Assembly (NCBI GenBank): GCA_021373255.1 | Contig: JAJFTD010000060.1 | Coordinates: 1 to 36,434, forward strand | Direction of reading: 5' to 3' | DNA from: a bacterium | GTDB lineage: Bacteria > Armatimonadota > UBA5829 | DNA length: 36,434 nt | Shown: piece after piece, positions 18,867-31,989 of the stretch | Layout: the number at the start of each line of letters is the position of its first letter | Numbering within the stretch: the stretch's first letter is position 1 | The notes under the pieces: generated by a model | Told to the model about the DNA's origin: nothing | The model's database searches: none | The model's input: the letters and a program-made list of their open reading frames with translations, nothing else | Program-made: the position numbers and the translations under genes

Positions 18867-20048
18867 TTATCGAGTCGCTAGTGCAGTTGCTGTATACTTG
18901 TAAACGTACTCAGCTCCCGCAACAAAATCATCCACAAACGGCACGAGTTCAGGCGCGGCAAAGTTATCCACAAATGGCAATCCGGCTTTATTCATCTCAG
19001 TGCCCACAATTATTGGAAGATCAGCGGCTCGGCAAGCAGCAACTATTTCTCCAAGTTTCTTTACTTTGAGGGCTTTTTCCTCTTGGTTTTTGATATTCCA
19101 GTTCCTGTCAGGGATGATATTAAGTGCTCCAACCCCTTTGGACTGCATCAGCGCCACGAGCGCAGTGGAATCTTCTTCACCCGGATTGGTAGCATCGAGC
19201 CATGTGGCTGTGGGAATCGCTCCCATACCCTGCATCATGCTGACGGCTTCTTCGATGCTCGGGAAGCTGCCCGCATCCGGCTTCACATAGCCCACCCCGC
19301 CAAACTTCATCAGCTTGGAGCGCATAGTGTCGTGCAACTTAGGCGTATTACCCAACAGCGCCTCTGCGGCAGCTTGGTCGATCCCCAGCTTTGACGCCCA
19401 GAACGATGCAACTTTCTCGCGCATCACGTTTCTAGCCTTTATATCATAAGCCAGAAGCAGGTGGCGTTCCGTCACATTACCTGCCGGAGTAAGGGGCACA
19501 GCGTCTTTGTCATAATCCAACTGCACCTCGTCCAAAAATGCATTCACGCGTTCGACCAGGACGATATTCCGCTGCCTGGCGGTATCGCGCATGTTGAACA
19601 GAATCTTCTCTGCCTCACTGCCCGCATCCGGTTTTCGATAACATCCCGACGCCATAAAATATGAAATCCCAGGCTCGTTCGGGCTGTTTATGACCTTATC
19701 TGCCAATTCACTGATGAATACGCGAGTCTCCAACCCTGCGACAGCCTTGAGCCCCAACAGCTTGCCAGCAGCCAGGAACTCGTCCATGCCGTCCAGTACG
19801 TCGAAGTCAACTATACCAGCCACTTCCAGGCCATACTTCGCGCTCTCCCACGCGATCCGGCTGGGCGACCATCCATTGGCGTTGAACGAGAAGAATGTGT
19901 GGAAATGCAAATTAACTTCTCGCTTTTTCGCCGCCAGCGATACCTGCCCGGATTTCACTTGCTCAGCCAACTGCTCCAGTGCATCACGTCTCTGTGAGCT
20001 ATCAAAGCTATTAAGCTGTTCTTCTAGCAATGTTATATCTTTGGTCAA
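18867..20048 (-). CDS. PHP-domain metal-dependent phosphoesterase-like protein
   Basis: The 393-residue protein has a PHP-type metal motif HFHTFFSFNANGWSP (His48, His50), then GLEVAGIVDFDVLDGMDEF and GLKAVAGLETRVF, as in PHP phosphoesterases. A helical N-terminus of about 40 residues precedes the domain, and a central helical insertion separates the second half (GYVKPDAGSFPSIEEAV, ALNIIPDRNWN, PIIVGTEMNKAGLPF). The start is TTG at 20048 with AGGAG seven bases upstream. It lies between rhamnulokinase and the fucose-isomerase-type gene. Its substrate is unknown; a phosphorylated sugar of the same pathway is a reasonable guess. It is not a polymerase PHP domain or HisK by length and context. Confidence 0.8.
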   Translation of the reverse strand: MTKDITLLEEQLNSFDSSQRRDALEQLAEQVKSGQVSLAAKKREVNLHFHTFFSFNANGWSPSRIAWESAKYGLEVAGIVDFDVLDGMDEFLAAGKLLGLKAVAGLETRVFISELADKVINSPNEPGISYFMASGCYRKPDAGSEAEKILFNMRDTARQRNIVLVERVNAFLDEVQLDYDKDAVPLTPAGNVTERHLLLAYDIKARNVMREKVASFWASKLGIDQAAAEALLGNTPKLHDTMRSKLMKFGGVGYVKPDAGSFPSIEEAVSMMQGMGAIPTATWLDATNPGEEDSTALVALMQSKGVGALNIIPDRNWNIKNQEEKALKVKKLGEIVAACRAADLPIIVGTEMNKAGLPFVDNFAAPELVPFVDDFVAGAEYVYKYTATALATR

Positions 20049-21787: not shown

Positions 21788-23053
21788 CTACACTCGCTTG
21801 CTGGTCACTGTAGCCTCGTAGGCTTGCAGTTCACCGATCCAGTCCGCTCCCACCGGCACACCGGCCTGGAGGCAGTAATAATTCCACACATCTCCCATGG
21901 GCATCGCTTTGGCCTCTTCAGTCAACGCCAGGCGCTCGAAGAGCTTACCTGAATCCTCATACTCCTTGAGCATCGCAGACGGCTCCAAGAGACCAGCAAG
22001 GATACCCTTAAGAGTTGCGCGAGAACCGGTGACCCATGCGCCCACTCTGTTCAGAGTGCCATCAAAGTAATCCAGAGCAACATGAACTTTGTCCAGACCG
22101 TTGCGGACCACCTCGCGGGTGACGTCCATAAGGTCATCATTTGCGATCACGACATGGTCGCTGTCCCACCGCACACCACGGCTGACGTGCAGCAGCACCT
22201 CGTCCGAGAACATGAGCACTGATGAGATCTTGTCCGCTATCGACTCTGTGGGATGGAAATGGCCGAGATCCATACACACCATCAGGCCATTCTTCATTGC
22301 ATATCCCATATAGAACTCGTGCGAACCAACTACATAGCTTTCACTGCCGATACCGAACAACTTGCATTCGACTGCATCTCGAAGATAATCGGGCGAATAC
22401 TTGTCGGCATAGATAAGGTCCAGCGAATTCTTGAGTCTTTGTCGCGGAGCACGTCGATCAGCCGGGGTTTCCTTGCATCCATCAGGAATCCAGAGGTTAT
22501 GCACCACAGGGGTTCCAGTCTCGCGGCCCATGAACGCTGAAATCTCACGCGCCCGGCGGGTGTGTTCGATCCAAAACGCCCGGATCGATTTGTCTTCATG
22601 GCTGAGTGTGAAACCATCATCAGCCTTTGGGTGCGAGAACAGGGTGGCGTTGAAGTCCATCCCCACTCCATTCGCCTTTGCCCAATCTACCCAGCCCTGG
22701 AAATGCTCGGGAGCAATCTCATCACGGTCGACCAGCTTGCCGCCGAACTCACCGTAGATTGCGTGCAAGTTCACCCGGTGCTTTCCCGGAATCAGCGAAT
22801 ATGCCTTTTCAAGATCGCTCCGCAGCTCTGCCACGGTACGCGCTTTGCCCAGGTAGTTCCCCGTAACCTGAATTCCACCACCGGACAGCGATGCCGCAGG
22901 CTTCTCGAAGCCACCCACATCATCACCCTGCCAACAGTGCAGTGATAGCGAAACACCGGACAGCGCTTTGATCGCCTTGTCCGTATCTACGCCAAATTCC
23001 GCGTAACGTTCTTTCGCGGCTGAATATGCTGCTTCGATCCTATCCTTGTTCAA
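21788..23053 (-). CDS. rhaA: L-rhamnose isomerase
   Basis: RhaA converts L-rhamnose to L-rhamnulose using divalent metals. The protein matches the family throughout: SLSLHCWQGDDVGGFE, GGIQVTGNYLGKA, VNLHAIYGEFGG, MDFNATLFSHPKA, VVHNLWIPDG, MVCMDLGHFHPTESIADKIS, GVRWDSDHVVIANDDL. Length from the chosen start is 421 residues, close to E. coli RhaA. The start is placed at TTG 23053 (MNKDRIEAAYSA), six bases after GGAG. An ATG at 23065 lies before that GGAG and has only repeat sequence upstream with no Shine-Dalgarno. The start choice is moderately sure; the function is very sure. It is followed by rhaB. Confidence 0.94.
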   Translation of the reverse strand: MNKDRIEAAYSAAKERYAEFGVDTDKAIKALSGVSLSLHCWQGDDVGGFEKPAASLSGGGIQVTGNYLGKARTVAELRSDLEKAYSLIPGKHRVNLHAIYGEFGGKLVDRDEIAPEHFQGWVDWAKANGVGMDFNATLFSHPKADDGFTLSHEDKSIRAFWIEHTRRAREISAFMGRETGTPVVHNLWIPDGCKETPADRRAPRQRLKNSLDLIYADKYSPDYLRDAVECKLFGIGSESYVVGSHEFYMGYAMKNGLMVCMDLGHFHPTESIADKISSVLMFSDEVLLHVSRGVRWDSDHVVIANDDLMDVTREVVRNGLDKVHVALDYFDGTLNRVGAWVTGSRATLKGILAGLLEPSAMLKEYEDSGKLFERLALTEEAKAMPMGDVWNYYCLQAGVPVGADWIGELQAYEATVTSKRV

Positions 23054-23065
23054 TGGTGTCTCCAT

Positions 23066-23139: not shown

Positions 23140-23940
23140 CTATGGGCTCATTACCTGGCCGCCGGTGACGTTGATCGCTTGGCCGGTCATATAACTGGAC
23201 TGGTCTGAGGCAAGGAAAACTACTGTGTTGGTAATGTCGTCATAAGACGTCCCTCGCCCTAGTGGCACCTGCGCTTCATACTTCTTGCGCACTTCTTCTT
23301 CGGTGATACCCCAACGCTCGGCGTATTGCTTATACAGGCTGTTCACCCACAGCGGGGAATCAAGCAGGTTGCCGGGGCAGATCGAGTTCACGCGCACCCC
23401 GAACGGGGCCAGTTCCAGCGCCAGGCTCTGGGTAAACCCGATACCGCCAAACTTGCTCGCGGCATAGGCAGAGTTCTTGAAACTGCCGCGCTTGCCGGAC
23501 TTCGAGTTGATCTGAATAATCGTGCCGCTCTTTTGCTGCTCCATCACCTTGGATGCCTCGCGAGCGCACACAAAATAACCGACCAGGTTAACGTCAATCA
23601 CCTTGCGCCAATCCGATGTAGCAAAGTCGCGCACATCACCAGACTTCAAAATACCTGCATTGCACACTAGGATATCGAGCTTGCCGAATGCATCCGTGCA
23701 CGCCTTGACCATCGCAGCAACATCGTCATCATTGGTAACATCGGCCTTCACTGGTATTGCTTTGACGTCGTATTCAGCCGCAACTGTTTCTGCAAGCTTG
23801 CTGCAGGCATCCAGATTAATATCAGCTATAACAACATTCGCGCCCTCACTCGCGAGCCTGCGGACTATTGCTTCACCCAGCCCCTGTCCGCCGCCGGTGA
23901 TGATTGCACTCTTTCCATCAAACTGTTTTTTGTTGCACAC
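23140..23940 (-). CDS. SDR oxidoreductase, sorbitol-6-phosphate 2-dehydrogenase (SrlD)-like
   Basis: This is a short-chain NAD(P)-dependent dehydrogenase. The 266-residue protein has the cofactor glycine motif TGGGQGLG (15-22), NAG at 94-96, Ser146 in INSKSGKRGS, and the catalytic pair Tyr159 and Lys163 in YAASK. The segment KSGKRGSFKNSAYAASKFGG and the C-terminal GNLLDSPLWVNSLY with EEVRKKYEAQVPLGRG closely recall SrlD, which oxidises sorbitol 6-phosphate. The start is GTG at 23940 with GGGAG upstream, six bases after the aldolase stop, so the two are coupled. In this operon it could reduce or oxidise a deoxysugar, a ketose phosphate or lactaldehyde; the exact substrate is open. Confidence 0.9.
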   Translation of the reverse strand: MCNKKQFDGKSAIITGGGQGLGEAIVRRLASEGANVVIADINLDACSKLAETVAAEYDVKAIPVKADVTNDDDVAAMVKACTDAFGKLDILVCNAGILKSGDVRDFATSDWRKVIDVNLVGYFVCAREASKVMEQQKSGTIIQINSKSGKRGSFKNSAYAASKFGGIGFTQSLALELAPFGVRVNSICPGNLLDSPLWVNSLYKQYAERWGITEEEVRKKYEAQVPLGRGTSYDDITNTVVFLASDQSSYMTGQAINVTGGQVMSP

Positions 23941-23946
23941 TTTGCT

Positions 23947-24723
23947 TTACTCCCGGTTTAGTCCTTCTATCAATTTCTTTCTGTCTAACTCATCCGGACG
24001 GGTATAAATACGGTCCACTGCTTCGGCAGTCATATAATTAGGTCCACCGAACTGGAATGTGCCTGCGAGCACCTTTGCGGTCTTGTCCCACATCGCGGTG
24101 ATGCTCTGCACTTCCGATACGGTGCCACCGACGGCGATCAAACCGTGGTTCTGCATCAACACCGACTTCGGTCGCTCGCCATACTGCTTCACATAGCTCT
24201 CGACTGATTCTTTGATGGTTCGCGCAAGGGTCACGCCAGGGTCTGTGTAGTCGATATACACAGGCGCGATTCCACAGCACACGATCTCGTCAGGGAACAA
24301 CCGCCCGCTGGTGAACTGCTTCCAGCCCGATGAGCAAGTGATCGAGTTTACCGATATAGGGTGGGTATGGCCGATGAAGTTCACACCCGGCAGCGAGAGC
24401 AGATACGCGTGGAATAGTGTTTCTATAGAGGGTGCGGGGCCACCGTCGTTGTTTAGCGTGGCCGCTTTGAGCCGGGCTTTGATCTCGGCATCCGTAAGCG
24501 CCGGGCCATCGAGCATATCCAGCACCTTGCTGAAACTCACTTCAACAATCCCGCGCTCGCTTATATTGCTAAGCTGTGCGCCGCTGGCTTTGACGTAGAA
24601 CGAGTCATCACCAATCTTGCCCGAGGTATTCCCCTCGCCAAGAATGGCAAATCCTCTGCTCTCCTCGCCCAGCCAGTGCGACATAGCTATCAATTGTTGC
24701 ATTGTCTGTTCTTTGTTTGACAT
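23947..24723 (-). CDS. Class II aldolase/adducin family protein, probable rhamnulose-1-phosphate aldolase
   Basis: Class II aldolases use zinc to cleave ketose 1-phosphates. The 258-residue protein shows the family order: ILGEGNTSGKIGDDSFYVKASG (substrate phosphate region), PSIETLFHAYLL, the zinc ligands His119 and His121 in GHTHP, and a third His193 in MQNHGL. The ATG at 24723 has GGGAGA upstream. Its position between E3 and the SDR-rhaA-rhaB set makes cleavage of rhamnulose 1-phosphate into dihydroxyacetone phosphate and lactaldehyde the likeliest job. It is not RhaD of the E. coli type by overall sequence, and a fuculose or other ketose-phosphate substrate cannot be excluded. Confidence 0.86.
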   Translation of the reverse strand: MSNKEQTMQQLIAMSHWLGEESRGFAILGEGNTSGKIGDDSFYVKASGAQLSNISERGIVEVSFSKVLDMLDGPALTDAEIKARLKAATLNNDGGPAPSIETLFHAYLLSLPGVNFIGHTHPISVNSITCSSGWKQFTSGRLFPDEIVCCGIAPVYIDYTDPGVTLARTIKESVESYVKQYGERPKSVLMQNHGLIAVGGTVSEVQSITAMWDKTAKVLAGTFQFGGPNYMTAEAVDRIYTRPDELDRKKLIEGLNRE

Positions 24724-24873: not shown

Positions 24874-26265
24874 TTAGCTATGAATAGCGCTCCCGTTTAC
24901 GTTAAGAGCGGCTTCTTTTGTTACTTCGGAAAGAGTTGGGTGCGCGTGGATGGCGTTGGCTATGGTCTCAATGGTCGCTTCTGACTCCATGCCGATTACT
25001 ACCTCGTGGATCATGTCCGTGACGTGCGGCCCTACCATGTGGCATCCCAGAACTTCGCCATACTTGGTATCAGTAATGAATTTCACTGTGCCTTCGGCTT
25101 CGCCGATACCCAGCGCTTTACCGTTTGCCCTGAATGAGAACTTGCCGACTTTGTAATCTATGCCCTGAGCCTTGGCAGCGTCTTCAGTGATACCTACTGA
25201 CGCAACCTCGGGGCTGGTGTATACCGCGGCAGGCAAAACATTGTATTTCATCTTGCTCGCGTGGCCCATGCAGTTCTCTGAGGCGATAACACCCTCTTCA
25301 CTTGCTTTGTGAGCAAGGAGCGCGCCACCTACAACATCACCGATGGCATAAACGCTGGAAATGTTTGTCTGCATGCGATCGTTTACTATTATCCGGCCGC
25401 GGTCCGTGGCAACGCCGATCTCTTCAAGACCCAGACCGGTAGAAACTGAACGACGCCCAACAGCCACAAGTATCTTCTCAGCCGATATCTTGCGCTCATT
25501 ACTACCATCCGCCGTAACAACCGTCGCGACCATCTCGCCGTTGGCTTGCTCCACCTTGGTAACCTTGTGCTCGTTAAGGATCTCGATACCGCTGCGCTTG
25601 AGTGACTTTGCCAACTCGTCGGCTATCTCGGAATCGTTCAAAGGCAGAATATGCGGCATAAGTTCGACTATTGTCACCTTGCAGCCGAACTTGTTGAACA
25701 TGAAGCCCCACTCCAGGCCGATGGCGCCAGCGCCGATTACGAGCATGCTCTTAGGCACATTGTCCGCACCAAGCGCACCATCGCTGTCCCACACATTTTC
25801 GCCGTCCAAACCGGGAATAGGGATCTTTGCAGGCTCGGAGCCGGTCGCGATAATTATGTTGCGCGCCTCAAAAGTCTCCTTGGAGCCGTCAGCCGCTGTT
25901 ACCTCAACAGAGTTCGCCGAAGCCAGCCGACCTGCGCCCTTGAACACCTTTATGCTGTTCTTCTTCATCAAGAAACCGACACCGCTCACCAGGGTCTTCA
26001 CGACCTTCTGCCTGTGTGCGATCACCGCGGCATAGTCCAGGCTCGCACCTGTCACCTTGACACCGAAGTTGTCGCTGCGGTTCAGCACCGTATCATAAAG
26101 CTCGGCACATGCCAGCATTGCCTTTGTCGGGATACAACCCCTGTTAAGGCAGACCCCACCGAGTTCGTCTTTTTCAACTATAGCGACTTTGCCCCCGAGC
26201 TGAGCCGCCTTTATTGCGGCTACATATCCCCCGGGGCCACCGCCAATAACTGCTACATCGTACAT
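24874..26265 (-). CDS. lpdA: Dihydrolipoyl dehydrogenase (E3)
   Basis: This FAD enzyme reoxidises the dihydrolipoyl groups of E2 and makes NADH. The 463-residue protein has the FAD motif VIGGGPGGYVAA (6-17), the redox disulfide Cys39/Cys44 in GGVCLNRGCIPTK, the NAD motif VIGAGAIGLEWG, SVYAIGDVVGGALLAHKASEEG, and the C-terminal active-site His in HAHPTLSE. The ATG at 26265 has AGGA upstream. It lies 319 bases after the E2 gene, a gap filled with repeats and hairpins, but in the same direction. With E1 and E2 it makes a complete 2-oxoacid (or acetoin) dehydrogenase set. Confidence 0.96.
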   Translation of the reverse strand: MYDVAVIGGGPGGYVAAIKAAQLGGKVAIVEKDELGGVCLNRGCIPTKAMLACAELYDTVLNRSDNFGVKVTGASLDYAAVIAHRQKVVKTLVSGVGFLMKKNSIKVFKGAGRLASANSVEVTAADGSKETFEARNIIIATGSEPAKIPIPGLDGENVWDSDGALGADNVPKSMLVIGAGAIGLEWGFMFNKFGCKVTIVELMPHILPLNDSEIADELAKSLKRSGIEILNEHKVTKVEQANGEMVATVVTADGSNERKISAEKILVAVGRRSVSTGLGLEEIGVATDRGRIIVNDRMQTNISSVYAIGDVVGGALLAHKASEEGVIASENCMGHASKMKYNVLPAAVYTSPEVASVGITEDAAKAQGIDYKVGKFSFRANGKALGIGEAEGTVKFITDTKYGEVLGCHMVGPHVTDMIHEVVIGMESEATIETIANAIHAHPTLSEVTKEAALNVNGSAIHS

Positions 26266-26517: not shown

Positions 26518-26573
26518 GGGTGGCGATCTCCGAATCGCCACCCTAAAGCCAAAGCCGGATCTCTGAATCCGGC
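26518..26573 (-). terminator. Two tandem hairpins after the E2 gene
   Basis: GGGTGGCGAT/ATCGCCACCC (26518-26527 with 26534-26543, loop CTCCGA) is followed by GCCGGAT/ATCCGGC (26554-26560 with 26567-26573, loop CTCTGA). Both are perfect and have nearly the same loop. They lie 12 bases beyond the E2 stop. The second recalls the stem at 890-920. No T-run is present, so mRNA stabilisation or partial termination is likely. Confidence 0.6.
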
Positions 26574-26584
26574 ACCACAGCCTA

Positions 26585-27931
26585 TTACACCAACAGCATC
26601 AACGGCGATTCTAGCTTGTTCTTGAGTTCCTGCAGGAACTTGGCCGCCGGAGCGCCGTCTACTATCCTGTGATCGAACGACAGGCAGAGGTTCATCATCG
26701 ATCGAATGACGATCTGGCCGTCCTTCACAACCGGCTTCTCAGCTATTCGGCAAACACCGAGAATAGCGGTCTGACCGGGTGTGATGATCGGATTGAACAC
26801 TTCGATGCCGAACGCGCCCAGATTGCTGATTGTGAATGTGCCACCTGCAAGATCAGCGCCTGTAATGGAGTTGCTGCGAGCTTTCTCAGCCAACTGTTTG
26901 GCTTCGATTGAAATCTCAGAAACGCTCTTCTTCTCAGCATCCTTTATGACCGGCACAATCAGCCCGTCATCCAGGGTAACCGCGAGGCCCATGTTCACGC
27001 TATCAAATAAGCGAATCTCATTGCCCTGAAGAGCAGAGTTGATCATTGGGTGGTTAAGCAGGGTGAGCGCAGCCGCCTTGACTATGAAGTCGGTGAACGT
27101 CACGCGCACACCGTATCTCTTCTCGAACTCGCCAACGATCTTCTTGCGAAGCTCAACAGCCTCGGTCATATCAACTTCAGTAGTAAGTGTGACATGCGGG
27201 GCAGTCTGCGCGCTCTTGGATACATTGTCAGCAATGCGCTTGCGCATACCGGCAAACGGAACAACCCTGGCCGAAGTCGACGCAGGTTGAGCCGCCGGAG
27301 CAGCGGCGCGAAGAACATCATCACGCACCACTCTGCCGCCGGTACCTGTCCCAGCCACATTGCGAAGATTAACACCCTCCACATCAGCAATCTTCGATGC
27401 GAGCGGTGTAGCCTTTACCGCGCCCTCAGCTATGTAAGCAAGGACATCTTTTTCCACAACTCTGCCTTCGGGACCGGTGCCGCGACCGGCGAGGTCACTC
27501 ACTTGAACACCGTTCTCCATAGCCACGCGCTTGGCTCTTGGGGATGCAAAGACTCTATTTACATCTGCCGTATCCTTGGAAACACTCGCAGCGGCAGCAG
27601 CCGGAACTACAGCGGGGGCTGCAACTTCCTTCGGCTGCTCCTGAGCCGGGGCTGAAGGTTGTCCACCTGAAAGCAGGCCATCAATCGACTCATCGGCGGT
27701 ACCGATGATCGCCACGGGTTCAAGGATCGGGATAGTATCATCCACCTTGGCAATAATCTTGCGTAGAATACCGGACTCGGGCGCTTCTACTTCCATGTTG
27801 ACCTTGTCAGTCATCACTTCGTACAGCGGCTCGCCGGCTGTGATAGTGTCGCCTTCTTGCTTAAACCATTTACTGATGGTGCCTTCTTCCATCGTCTGGC
27901 CAAGCATAGGCAGCGTAATTACGTTAGCCAT
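26585..27931 (-). CDS. Dihydrolipoamide acyltransferase (E2) with two peripheral-subunit-binding domains
   Basis: E2 is the core of 2-oxoacid dehydrogenase complexes and transfers the acyl group from lipoyl to CoA. The 448-residue protein has one lipoyl domain (1-80; Lys43 in EVMTDKVNMEVEAP is the lipoylation site), an Ala/Pro linker, and then two adjacent E3/E1-binding motifs: FASPRAKRVAMENGVQVSDL with GRGTGPEGRVVEKDV (about 128-167) and TPLASKIADVEGVNLRNVAG with GGRVVRDDV (about 174-207). The catalytic domain ends with SFDHRIVDG (His421, Asp425). Its ATG overlaps the stop of the preceding MDR gene (TAATG), so the two are translationally coupled. Substrate type (pyruvate, acetoin or branched-chain) cannot be fixed from these motifs. 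Confidence 0.95.
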   Translation of the reverse strand: MANVITLPMLGQTMEEGTISKWFKQEGDTITAGEPLYEVMTDKVNMEVEAPESGILRKIIAKVDDTIPILEPVAIIGTADESIDGLLSGGQPSAPAQEQPKEVAAPAVVPAAAAASVSKDTADVNRVFASPRAKRVAMENGVQVSDLAGRGTGPEGRVVEKDVLAYIAEGAVKATPLASKIADVEGVNLRNVAGTGTGGRVVRDDVLRAAAPAAQPASTSARVVPFAGMRKRIADNVSKSAQTAPHVTLTTEVDMTEAVELRKKIVGEFEKRYGVRVTFTDFIVKAAALTLLNHPMINSALQGNEIRLFDSVNMGLAVTLDDGLIVPVIKDAEKKSVSEISIEAKQLAEKARSNSITGADLAGGTFTISNLGAFGIEVFNPIITPGQTAILGVCRIAEKPVVKDGQIVIRSMMNLCLSFDHRIVDGAPAAKFLQELKNKLESPLMLLV

Positions 27932-29676
27932 TATTCTTCCCCTATTATTTCCAGCTTCAGCATCGTCCGCAAGAGTTCTGCTTCAGCTTCACGATTCCAG
28001 AACATACCGTCAGTCAACTTCGCCGCAACACTAGGCAGCACCTTCCCAATTTCGGGCACAGCGGTCAGCGCAAGGCCGCTAATCTGCGGGTAGATAACTA
28101 CCCTACCAGGGAACTTGCCTTCCTTAACGGCTTTCATACCATCCCATGAGGCTTCAATTCCGCCCACTGCGGCAACCGAGGTGTTTGTGGAAAGCTCGCC
28201 GGACTCAGCGGCACCCAGGGTGTCCTGCATGTCCGTGACTTTGGACCCGCTGCTTCCAACAAATCTGACGCCTTTTGCATAGACACCAGTGAGGTCAAGC
28301 GAAGCAATAGTGCCCGTTGGGACACCTGCAAATATGTTCATAAGACACTGTTCGCCCATCCACGGCACAGCCTGCTCGACCAGCTTAGCGACAGGTGCGA
28401 GAGCAACAATGTCATCAAAGCCCTTGCCTCCGGTGAACTCCTCAAGCAGTTTGTTGAACTCCTCGGGGCTGATCTCCATAGGATTCACCACCCGCAGGTC
28501 TACTCCTCGCCGCTCGGCTATGGGCATAAAGCGCTGCTTCACACTCTCAAGCCTGGCGGTATCAACGTCAGTGGCGAGGATTTTCATCGGACCGTTGGGG
28601 AGTTCCACCGCTCTCTGCAGGTGCATCTGCCCCATAGGGCCACCCGCACCTATAAACCACGCGCTGCCACCCTGCTTAAGTTCACTGGGAACTCGCGTCG
28701 GGCCGTAAGCATCGGCCAACTTGCCGGTGGTAGCGCCGAGGTAGGAGTGGTTTTGGTAATGGATCTTACCGATGTCCACTTTAATCGGCCGCGTCATGTT
28801 GCCATTAGAAAGTATGCTCAATACGGCATCTCGTCCAAGACACTCAGCGGCTTTCTCAACCACATCAGCATCTGATCCGAGGATCACAACATCATCAAAC
28901 AAGCCATACTTGGCGGATAGAGCATCGATATCGCCTGCACCGGCTGAAGTGACAAGATCAAACTTGCCCTGCCCTGCCAGAGTTTTCAACTCATCAGCCA
29001 GTTTGCCTGTAACTCCGCTTGCAATGACGGTCTTGGAGTCGATGTTCATACCGAACGTGAAGTCGCCTTCACCGCCCGCGTTGACTATCCACATCACCCC
29101 ACCGGGCTTTATCGATGTTCTTCGATTGATTCTGTAAGAGGCCACCACGCATGCCCACGGTTCGGCCAAAGCGGCTTCAGCGTAGCCCGTAGTGTTCTGC
29201 ACGGGGAGCAGGTAGCAGCCTTCATCGCCAGCAAGCACTTCCTGCCCGACAACCTGATACTGGGTCTGCGCGCCCGGCAGCGCATAGCCGAACGCCATGC
29301 TCTTGCCATTTACAAATACATCAGCCTGCACGATAAATCGCTGGCCGATACTAAACTTGCCTTTAAGGCTATCGCCCACACCCGCCACCGTGACAGCGGC
29401 CTCGTGGCCCAACGTCACAGGGTCAACAGTCAGGTCACGTCCGATGACTCTGGGGTGCTGGTTGCCCTGGTTGATTACTTTAATATCACTAAAACAAATA
29501 CCCACGGCGTCAATGCGGAGAAGGAGTTGATCGGGGCCATAAATTGGGAGCGGCTTCGTTTCGGGCTTGCCGTCGCGGCCGAGGTTCTCTACCCCAGCGC
29601 CGTAGAGATGCCAGGTGTATATCGTATCAGGCAGCTTGTGCGCTACCCGCTTGTAGCTCTGCATTATGTCACTCAA
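27931..29676 (-). CDS. Long MDR-family (zinc alcohol dehydrogenase-like) oxidoreductase with an inserted domain
   Basis: Residues 45-200 form a GroES-like catalytic domain (LLLRIDAVGICFSDIK with Cys61, LGHEAAVTVAGVG with Glu92, and AEPWACV). The expected nucleotide fold with WFIGAGGPMGQMHLQ begins only near residue 339. Between them lie about 140 residues (GGVMWIVNAGGEG to ELKQGG) with Rossmann-like alternation, so the protein is 581 residues against about 350-410 for common MDR enzymes. The C-terminal half includes FDDIVALAPVAKLVEQA. Overall it recalls L-sorbose-1-phosphate reductase-type MDRs. The start is TTG 29676, eight bases after AGGAG; an ATG four codons later is too far from that site. 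It is coupled to E2 by a TAATG overlap. Substrate unknown. Confidence 0.85.
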   Translation of the reverse strand: MSDIMQSYKRVAHKLPDTIYTWHLYGAGVENLGRDGKPETKPLPIYGPDQLLLRIDAVGICFSDIKVINQGNQHPRVIGRDLTVDPVTLGHEAAVTVAGVGDSLKGKFSIGQRFIVQADVFVNGKSMAFGYALPGAQTQYQVVGQEVLAGDEGCYLLPVQNTTGYAEAALAEPWACVVASYRINRRTSIKPGGVMWIVNAGGEGDFTFGMNIDSKTVIASGVTGKLADELKTLAGQGKFDLVTSAGAGDIDALSAKYGLFDDVVILGSDADVVEKAAECLGRDAVLSILSNGNMTRPIKVDIGKIHYQNHSYLGATTGKLADAYGPTRVPSELKQGGSAWFIGAGGPMGQMHLQRAVELPNGPMKILATDVDTARLESVKQRFMPIAERRGVDLRVVNPMEISPEEFNKLLEEFTGGKGFDDIVALAPVAKLVEQAVPWMGEQCLMNIFAGVPTGTIASLDLTGVYAKGVRFVGSSGSKVTDMQDTLGAAESGELSTNTSVAAVGGIEASWDGMKAVKEGKFPGRVVIYPQISGLALTAVPEIGKVLPSVAAKLTDGMFWNREAEAELLRTMLKLEIIGEE

Positions 29677-29704: not shown

Positions 29705-29734
29705 GATGGTCCGGGCCAATGCACCCGGACCATC
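29705..29734 (-). terminator. Perfect 11-bp hairpin between E1 and the MDR gene
   Basis: GATGGTCCGGG (29705-29715) and CCCGGACCATC (29724-29734) pair perfectly around an 8-nt loop, 24 bases past the E1 stop. No T-run follows on the minus strand. It may stabilise the E1 message or attenuate downstream transcription. Confidence 0.6.
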
Positions 29735-29757: not shown

Positions 29758-31989
29758 TTACAGTAGTGACTTTACAGCTTTTATAATGTCATCGCGAGAA
29801 GGCACGGCAGCATCCTCAAGCGGTGCGCTCATCGGAATCGGAACATCCTTTGCAGCAACAACCGCAGGCGGAGCGTCGAAGTAGTCGAAGCACAGGGTGC
29901 CATCGGCAAACTTGTACTCACTTACCTGCCTTACGATCTCACCAGCAACACCGCAGCGGGTGAATGCTTCGGATACGCTGATCAGTCGGCCGGTCTTCTT
30001 AACAGACTGCGCGATGGTTTCCACATCCAGCGGAGCAAGGGTGCGCGGGTCGATAACCTCAACGCTTATGCCCTCTTTTTCCAACTCAAGTGCAGCATCC
30101 ATAGCAAAGTGCAGCATTCGAGAGTAGGCAACGATAGTAGCATCCTTGCCCTCTTTCTTCACGTCGGCAACACCCAGCGGAATGATATACTCTTCCTCCG
30201 GAACCGGGCCCATAACGCCGCTGTAGAGGACTTTGTGCTCGATAAAGATTACAGGATTGTCATCTCTGATGGCAGCCTTGAGAAGTCCCTTTGCATCATA
30301 AGGAGTAGACGGCATAACCAGGTAGAGACCAGGGATATGCATAAACCAGGACTCAAGACTCTCGGAGTGGTGAGCTGCGATACTTCGTCCAACGCCGCCC
30401 TCTGTTCTGAGCACGCACGGAACCTTGGTCTTGCCACCGAACATATAGCGGTTGTAGGCCATATTGTGCACGATCTGGTCAGACGCGATGGTTACGAAGT
30501 CCACATACATGATCTCAGGAATGGGCCTCAAACCTCTCATAGCCGCACCGGCAGCAGCACCTGCGATAGCCGCTTCTGAAATGGCTGTGTCCATAACTCG
30601 TGTCGGGCCGAACTCGTCCAGAAGTCCGCGTGTAGCAGCATAAGCGCCGCCATAAAGGCCAACATCCTCGCCCAAGATCACGACGCTCTCGTCGCGCTTC
30701 ATTTCCTCACGCTGAGCTTCTACAAGAGCCTGTCCGTAGGTAAGAATCCGCGTGCCATACTTTCCTTCAAACTGACCCTGTCCAGCCTTGTTCAACTTTG
30801 GCAAAGCGGACTTGGCAGCGCCACCGGACTGTTCGCGGAGGAATCCTCTAATATCGTCTTCAATCGCTTTGACCTTCGCAGCGATCGGCTTCTCTGCAGC
30901 CTTTTCAGCAGCCATCTTAGCCGGATCAGCATCAACATACACGCCGTCGAACAGCTCGCTGGCATCCGGCAGTGGGCTATCGGTCGCAAACTTTGTAGCC
31001 GCTTCGATGGTTGCAGTTGCCTTGTCGCGGATGGTGTCCATCTCGGCTTCGGTCATAATTCCGGCGTCAGCAAGTTTTCCACGGAGCACGACTATCGGGC
31101 AGCGCTCTTTCCATGCAGCTTCTTCTTCGCGAGTGCGGTAGATTCTCTGGTCGCTGATGGAGTGGCCGAACCACCTGTAGGTCTTGGCTTCAATCAAGGC
31201 CGGGCCAGCGCCCTTTCTTGCATTCTCAACGGCTTTCTTCACGGCTTCGCGAACAGCCAACACATCCATACCGTCAACGATCTCACCGGGGATACCGTAA
31301 GCGGCGGCACGGTCGACAACATGATCTACCTTTGAGGCCTGACCCGCTGCGTCTACGCACTTCTGATGATAAGGAACGGACATTCCGTAGAGGTTGTTCT
31401 CACAAACATATACAATCGGTAAGCCACAAAGGAGAGTAGCGCCCATATTAAGCGCCTCGTGGAAGCTGCCGGTGTTGGTAGAGCCGTCCCCGAAGAAGCA
31501 GAGGACAACATTATCAGTGCCCTTGAGCTTCTCAGCGAGCGCTGCGCCCGTGGCGATGGGGATGTTACCGCCGACGATACCAGTGGAACCAAGGTTGCCT
31601 TTTTGGACGTCTGCGATGTGCATCGATCCGCCGCGGCCCCTGCAATAACCGGTAGCCTTGCCCATAAGCTCGGCCATCATCTTGTTCCAGTGGTCTTGGC
31701 GATCTTTTTCAGTGTGGGCATGTTTGTCGCCGATAGCGCCGCAGTGGCCGTGCCCGCGATGGGTACTTGCGATTATGTCGTCTTCAGAGATAGCGGAGAC
31801 GGCGCCCACGGCAACTGCTTCCTCGCCTGCGTAGAGGTGGGACGCACCTTTAATAATACCGGCCTTGAGAAGTTCTGCAACTTTCTCTTCAAAGAACCGA
31901 ATCTCATACATCTGACGCAGGAAATCAGCAAGTTGATCCTTGCCGAGGTCGAGCCCCGCTTTCGGGGCCGCTTTGCTTGCGGTAGCCAT
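29758..31989 (-). CDS. Fused E1 alpha-beta subunit of a 2-oxoacid/acetoin dehydrogenase complex
   Basis: This thiamine-diphosphate enzyme performs the first, decarboxylating or cleaving, step. Residues 1-360 match E1 alpha: YEIRFFEEKVAELLKAG, SHLYAGEEAVAVGA, GRGGSMHI, and the ThDP/Mg motif from GDGSTNTGSFHEALN (GDG at 167-169) to ENN (197-199). A charged Ala/Lys linker (about 355-410) leads to E1 beta (411-743): YGQALVEAQREEM, ILGEDVGLYGGAY, DTAISEAAIAGAAAGAAMRG, RTEGGVGRSIAAHHSES, VEVIDPRTLAPLDVETI. The two chains are normally separate genes; the fusion is uninterrupted and in frame. The ATG at 31989 has GGAGGAG eight bases upstream. It is the first gene of the operon, behind the promoter at 32067-32095. 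Substrate assignment is open. Confidence 0.94.
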   Translation of the reverse strand: MATASKAAPKAGLDLGKDQLADFLRQMYEIRFFEEKVAELLKAGIIKGASHLYAGEEAVAVGAVSAISEDDIIASTHRGHGHCGAIGDKHAHTEKDRQDHWNKMMAELMGKATGYCRGRGGSMHIADVQKGNLGSTGIVGGNIPIATGAALAEKLKGTDNVVLCFFGDGSTNTGSFHEALNMGATLLCGLPIVYVCENNLYGMSVPYHQKCVDAAGQASKVDHVVDRAAAYGIPGEIVDGMDVLAVREAVKKAVENARKGAGPALIEAKTYRWFGHSISDQRIYRTREEEAAWKERCPIVVLRGKLADAGIMTEAEMDTIRDKATATIEAATKFATDSPLPDASELFDGVYVDADPAKMAAEKAAEKPIAAKVKAIEDDIRGFLREQSGGAAKSALPKLNKAGQGQFEGKYGTRILTYGQALVEAQREEMKRDESVVILGEDVGLYGGAYAATRGLLDEFGPTRVMDTAISEAAIAGAAAGAAMRGLRPIPEIMYVDFVTIASDQIVHNMAYNRYMFGGKTKVPCVLRTEGGVGRSIAAHHSESLESWFMHIPGLYLVMPSTPYDAKGLLKAAIRDDNPVIFIEHKVLYSGVMGPVPEEEYIIPLGVADVKKEGKDATIVAYSRMLHFAMDAALELEKEGISVEVIDPRTLAPLDVETIAQSVKKTGRLISVSEAFTRCGVAGEIVRQVSEYKFADGTLCFDYFDAPPAVVAAKDVPIPMSAPLEDAAVPSRDDIIKAVKSLL

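Follow-up and report, generated by a model that had tools for sequence, protein, structure and literature searches.

Introduction

MDRs rank among the best-studied enzyme superfamilies, and ordinary members such as the alcohol and sorbitol dehydrogenases (for example, the Thermoanaerobacter secondary alcohol dehydrogenase) have one cofactor domain per chain. SorE, known from Klebsiella and from the sor operon of E. coli, is an MDR of 410 aa with one cofactor domain, encoded in a PTS operon that has an SDR (SorD) as neighbor and no aldolase partner. Its partner SDR oxidizes sorbitol-6-phosphate to fructose-6-phosphate. SorE itself converts L-sorbose-1-phosphate to sorbitol-6-phosphate (PMC12817954). 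For E. coli YggP, a related MDR of 425 aa, the literature searched gave no established function. In another system, RhaEW (YuxG) joins a rhamnulose-1-phosphate aldolase to a lactaldehyde dehydrogenase; a ketose-1-phosphate is cleaved to DHAP and an aldehyde, and RhaW oxidizes lactaldehyde (PMC3870299). Here we compare these proteins with a 581-residue MDR from Armatimonadota and with the genes that surround it.

Results

A long MDR in a rhamnose operon

The window analyzed is a stretch of 36,434 nucleotides (contig JAJFTD010000060.1, assembly GCA_021373255.1; Armatimonadota, UBA5829). Its minus strand carries the gene run E1, MDR, E2, E3, class II aldolase, SDR, RhaA, RhaB, PHP-like and fucose-isomerase-like, with intergenic gaps, in that order, of 81, −1, 319, 150, 6, 74, 9, 251 and 34 bases, and a divergent DeoR-type regulator gene lies upstream of the run. 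The features are as follows.

29758..31989, minus strand: fused alpha-beta E1 of PDH/2-oxoacid type, 743 aa
27931..29676, minus strand: zinc MDR of SorE/YggP type, 581 aa from a TTG start, cofactor domain duplicated in tandem
29134..29676, minus strand: MDR residues 1-181, GroES-like catalytic half (Pfam ADH_N, invariant columns)
28687..29124, minus strand: MDR residues 185-330, the insert, a degenerate cofactor-domain copy that has lost the Gly motif (profile, fold, conservation)
28216..28686, minus strand: MDR residues 331-487, intact cofactor domain with GAGGPMG at 343 and acidic D370, NAD type (Pfam ADH_zinc_N 349-487)
27934..28215, minus strand: MDR residues 488-581, return of the chain to the catalytic domain, then the C-terminal tail (alignment)
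26585..27931, minus strand: E2 acyltransferase, its start overlapping the MDR stop
24874..26265, minus strand: E3 dihydrolipoyl dehydrogenase (TIGR01350 over cut-off)
23947..24723, minus strand: class II aldolase, like the RhaE half of RhaEW
23140..23940, minus strand: SDR (NCBIfam NF009050, sorbitol-6-phosphate dehydrogenase, 367 bits vs cut-off 307)
21788..23065, minus strand: L-rhamnose isomerase RhaA
20300..21778, minus strand: FGGY kinase like rhamnulokinase RhaB (502.9 bits, cut-off 527.95)
18867..20048, minus strand: PHP-domain-like protein, weak Pfam score
17336..18832, minus strand: short L-fucose-isomerase-like protein, 498 aa, also in the rhamnose operon of genome G005

The TTG start of the MDR gene at 29676 is preceded by AGGAG, a good ribosome-binding site, and this choice of start agrees with the homologues, whose N-terminus likewise reads M-SD. 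At its other end the MDR stop and the E2 start have one base in common (TAATG), and the coupling of the two genes proposed from the letters alone is real in the window. A perfect 10-bp inverted repeat (ATGGTCCGGG/CCCGGACCAT) with an 8-base loop and no T run lies at 29706-29733 between E1 and the MDR gene, and a terminator-like hairpin at 26554-26573, followed by TTTGGCTTT, lies between E2 and E3.

The window SDR also resembles the SDR half of RhaEW, and its identity to Klebsiella SorD is only 30%. Scored against the RhaEW model TIGR02632, the separate aldolase and SDR genes reach 54.7 and 189.8 bits, below the cut-off of 567.75. The fucose-isomerase-like protein is about 90 aa shorter than FucI and is possibly another ketose isomerase; the protein cluster of the PHP-like gene recurs near the MDR in loci L056, L058, L083 and L086.

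Kinship of the long MDR with SorE and YggP

Within the MDR, Pfam places ADH_N at 47-145 and ADH_zinc_N only at 349-487, leaving about 200 residues between them with no Pfam domain; PF08240 passes its cut-off, and PF00107, at 30.2 bits, falls slightly below its cut-off of 31.8. A GroES-like catalytic domain and an MDR cofactor domain are both present, as in other members of the superfamily. By tblastn, YggP and SorE come out as the nearest short relatives; their matches fall into two pieces that omit the middle of the protein, at 150-201 bits and with 92% of the query covered, whereas other MDRs mostly score about 60-70 bits. In a 46-protein alignment, SorE and YggP align normally with the long MDR on both sides of a stretch of about 150 residues that they lack: the catalytic half lies before it, the cofactor domain and C-terminal return after it. 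The Pfam gap and this alignment confirm the domain-sized insertion that a sequence-only reading had placed between the GroES-like half and the cofactor glycine motif.

Identity to SorE and YggP is 25-28% (about 25% for SorE and about 28% for YggP), and the motifs are the same. The catalytic zinc residues C61, H91, E92, E172 and C176 (EPxxC motif) are kept in 39 of 39 long homologues, as are G343, G346 and G349 of the NAD loop in the intact cofactor domain. D370 is conserved in 35 of the 39, at a position where an acidic residue is typical of NAD-dependent MDRs. The residues K66, H74, R76, Q117, D422 and N447 are common to the long MDR and the SorE/YggP group and, as a set, are absent from 20 ordinary MDRs of Armatimonadota; the SorE-type motif is present in the window protein, including K66, H74, R76, Q117, FDD and N447-AG. 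By sequence similarity and by these residues, the long MDR is a zinc MDR of the SorE/YggP type, although its 581 aa and duplicated domain depart from the single cofactor domain and roughly 410-425 aa of that group. Given the conserved zinc residues and GxGGPMG, the second cofactor copy and the catalytic half would together be catalytically competent.

The insert is a decayed copy of the cofactor domain

The inserted segment lies between AEPWACV (residues 171-177) and GAGGPMG (343) and contains KPGGVMW (190) and FDDVVILG (260). Profiles of the insert (residues 185-328) and of the protein's own cofactor domain (residues 329-500) were compared by hhalign and matched in one colinear alignment of 138 columns, with a probability of 99.5 and an E-value of 5.7e-23, against a maximum of 1.5 for 60 column-shuffled control profiles. 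This match, well beyond chance, bears out the suggestion of a second, degenerate nucleotide fold. The insert profile scored highest, at 161, with the second domain of the long proteins themselves; SorE/YggP-type domains gave 118 and ordinary MDRs (n=20) only 38, an order that equal-sized subsets reproduced. This order places the origin of the tandem copy within this lineage.

Structure prediction pointed the same way. Folded alone from two sequences, the insert gave a model with a pLDDT of 69.8 and a pTM of 0.69, for which the best 50 PDB matches by Foldseek were all MDRs, with E-values no better than 0.003; the top matches are to MDR cofactor domains. When VIA-align was used to superpose the model on residues 163-296 of secondary alcohol dehydrogenases, 120 of 151 residues aligned with a Z of 11.5 and an rmsd of 3.0, so that by structural match the predicted insert has the MDR cofactor-domain fold that ordinary MDRs also possess. 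A full-length AlphaFold2 model, likewise from two sequences, had a pLDDT of 43 and was too poor for domain placement. Taken together, the profile comparison and the predicted model show the insert to be an internal tandem duplicate of the MDR's own cofactor domain, neither linker nor foreign.

The copy has decayed. The GxGxxG loop of NAD(P)-binding Rossmann domains is absent from the insert across the 39 homologues, which makes the usual NAD binding improbable, and the insert probably does not bind NAD in that manner. Among the homologues, pairs are on average 32% identical in the insert, 47% in the second cofactor copy and 57% in the catalytic half. No other part of the protein changes as fast as the insert, whose length ranges from 107 to 158 residues. 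We infer that it is a pseudo-domain retained for structure or assembly and not for NAD binding. Such an arrangement works like that of the polyketide-synthase ketoreductase, where a truncated pseudo-Rossmann structural subdomain sits beside an active catalytic one; that enzyme is an SDR and not an MDR, is of unrelated origin, and has a structural role that is known, whereas for the insert the role is inferred.

A profile search of the PDB returned no chain with the long-MDR layout among the matches listed, the longest of which has 447 aa. No paper on an MDR with a duplicated cofactor domain was found in a partial coverage of the literature, and the term 'undescribed' is accordingly provisional. 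Among the literature searched and the solved structures matched, then, the claim that no enzyme of this layout had been described stands, and the long MDR with its tandem-duplicated cofactor domain, one copy decayed, appears to be an undescribed layout.

Distribution and probable horizontal transfer

The family profile (E below 1e-30) matches 131 of 201 genomes drawn from Armatimonadota, a count that includes a few short forms lacking the insert, such as those of G008 and G012. A 66% relative is present in the same class of the phylum, and a scan of a single genome collection returned one relative only, in Armatimonadota. Spread beyond the phylum is known from one Deinococcus plasmid only, where a long form adjoins an SDR and an FGGY kinase, and a scan of viral contigs yielded no relative of the long MDR.

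In the tree, the window MDR pairs with that of G024 (100/99) inside family f5 (99/99), and a second MDR of the same genome clusters with genus mates. MurA on the window contig is 85-88% identical to genus mates, on which ground a contaminant contig was rejected, and 63-65% identical to f5. By MurA the contig is native, and as the MDR falls within f5, the window copy of the MDR was probably gained by horizontal transfer.

A conserved aldolase-MDR-SDR unit

The neighbors of the widespread long form were examined at 73 loci. A class II aldolase gene is directly upstream of the long MDR in 44 of 73 loci, and an SDR gene directly downstream in 34, with the MDR and SDR fused in one open frame in 10 of the 73; further fusions were seen besides. 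Two loci, L056 and L058, show an aldolase-SDR fusion like RhaEW; it adjoins the MDR and has a gene resembling mannitol-1-phosphate dehydrogenase nearby. An MtlD-like gene occurs close to the MDR in three loci. The two partners of the MDR are homologues of the RhaEW halves. RhaEW has no MDR; at the loci studied here, the MDR gene either separates the two halves or is joined in one frame with the SDR half. Three triad SDRs among those scanned pass the sorbitol-6-phosphate dehydrogenase cut-off. Conserved gene order and fusions show that the predicted aldolase, MDR and SDR form a three-enzyme unit, beside which no recurrent sugar kinase or transporter was found.

Single MDR-SDR open frames of about 840-920 aa were seen in several families (L033, L034, L045, L046, L051, L099, L101, L102, L105, L016, L017). 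In the window's own family, a gene resembling GH130 beta-1,2-mannobiose phosphorylase adjoins the MDR(-SDR) or lies just downstream of it (L022, L029, L030, L032, L036, L037, L042).

As a general role, a bypass of PFK or FBP aldolase by the triad was rejected, given that 195 of the 201 genomes have PFK and 166 have class II FBP aldolase, most triad bearers included. Many genomes of the 201-genome set with no class II FBP aldolase match fall in families f16 and f24, both of which also lack the long MDR.

Discussion

With modest confidence, we favor as the best overall explanation an NAD-dependent polyol/ketose-phosphate MDR that works with an SDR and an aldolase and carries a duplicated cofactor domain, one copy of which is a structural pseudo-domain. 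In an MDR of the SorE/YggP lineage, the cofactor domain underwent tandem duplication; the first copy then lost the loop that binds the dinucleotide and turned into a fast-changing pseudo-domain, and the second would have kept NAD binding and would carry out the chemistry together with the catalytic half. By family resemblance at the identity noted above, the substrate is likely a polyol or ketose phosphate, and by analogy to SorE the MDR most likely interconverts ketose phosphate and polyol phosphate. Its partners are an SDR resembling sorbitol-6-phosphate dehydrogenase and a class II aldolase that would cleave a ketose-1-phosphate; on the simplest view of all three, a shift of the keto group via the polyol phosphate would yield or drain the aldolase substrate. 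In the window, this unit has been incorporated into a rhamnose operon that also holds E1-E2-E3. The extra domain is probably structural, and may pack against the real cofactor domain, replacing a partner subunit or sitting beside it.

Other substrates have to be weighed against a sugar phosphate. The MDR could oxidize or reduce a C3 compound released when a deoxysugar is cleaved (L-lactaldehyde, L-1,2-propanediol or hydroxyacetone) together with the RhaE-like aldolase and RhaW-like SDR, since the two partners are homologous to the halves of RhaEW (PMC3870299) and stand directly before RhaA-RhaB in both the window and G005, and since a SorE-type MDR, long or short, is present in every one of the 19 genomes (of 61) that bear RhaA (Fisher p 0.004, a test that ignores kinship). 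We regard this as possible, if on the whole unlikely: 29 of the 48 genomes that bear the MDR have no RhaA, the rhamnose operon of G005 contains no MDR (the genome has one elsewhere), and the relative SorE works on a phosphorylated sugar, with K66, H74 and R76 retained in the long MDR. A strictly rhamnose-specific role is not supported, given the same absence of RhaA and that of a RhaB-like kinase from some genomes. The sequence-only reading had instead made the MDR the supplier of a 2-oxo or keto substrate to the adjacent E1-E2-E3, with the insert possibly as a built-in regulatory domain for that task. The TAATG coupling to E2 favors such a role, as do the E1 or E2 genes near the MDR in L058, L086 and L105 as well as the window, and the operon of G008 and G012 in which an insert-less SorE-type MDR is joined with SDR-E2-E3-E1. 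(In loci L060 and L061, a SorE-type MDR that lacks the insert shares an operon with SDR, E2, E3 and a fused E1 of 825 aa.) However, most long-MDR loci have no E1, E2 or E3 within about 9 kb; the five independent E1/E2 neighborhoods stand against an expectation roughly estimated at about 1.8 (Poisson p 0.036); and the E1 scores with pyruvate dehydrogenases. As the complex-linked MDRs of G008 and G012 lack the insert, the insert is not tied to the complex. Moreover, contig 11 of G005 (L129, 9197-17814) holds a contiguous E1-aldolase-SDR-RhaA-RhaB-FucI-like operon, 71-84% identical to the window genes, that has no MDR, E2, E3 or PHP gene, the MDR of that genome sitting beside a GH130 gene. With most long MDRs far from the complex and this operon without one, the supply of a 2-oxo substrate is not supported and we consider it quite improbable; the link to E1-E2-E3 is hence a local assembly, mostly of one family, and not the defining context of the MDR.

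The insert, too, admits other readings. Five of its residues, G193, D262, H306, Y307 and G314, are invariant in the 39 homologues, as might be expected if it bound a ligand (a nucleotide, sugar phosphate or CoA) as an allosteric switch. Yet D262 and the H-Y-G stretch can also be matched in the cofactor domains of ordinary SorE-type MDRs and are hence perhaps relics of the fold, and so fast-changing a region, shrunken to 107 residues in some members, makes such a switch distinctly unlikely. That the long layout is an artefact, whether a frameshift, a misassembly or the chance likeness of a low-complexity linker, has a negligible probability given the recurrence of the layout as an open frame in many genomes, the colinear profile match and the independent fold match.

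Returning to the structural pseudo-domain and its sugar-phosphate partners, a broader picture can be sketched tentatively, although we think it doubtful as a whole: a phylum-wide form of MDR in which a pseudo-domain made by internal duplication gates the active site or stands in for a partner subunit, and in which intermediates are handed to the fused SDR, feeding the aldolase. If true, this two-dehydrogenase ketose-phosphate converter would be a new sugar-phosphate route in Armatimonadota. The long MDR is a clean test of why a pseudo-domain persists across a phylum, and the conserved aldolase-MDR-SDR unit hints at an undescribed sugar-phosphate pathway in these bacteria.
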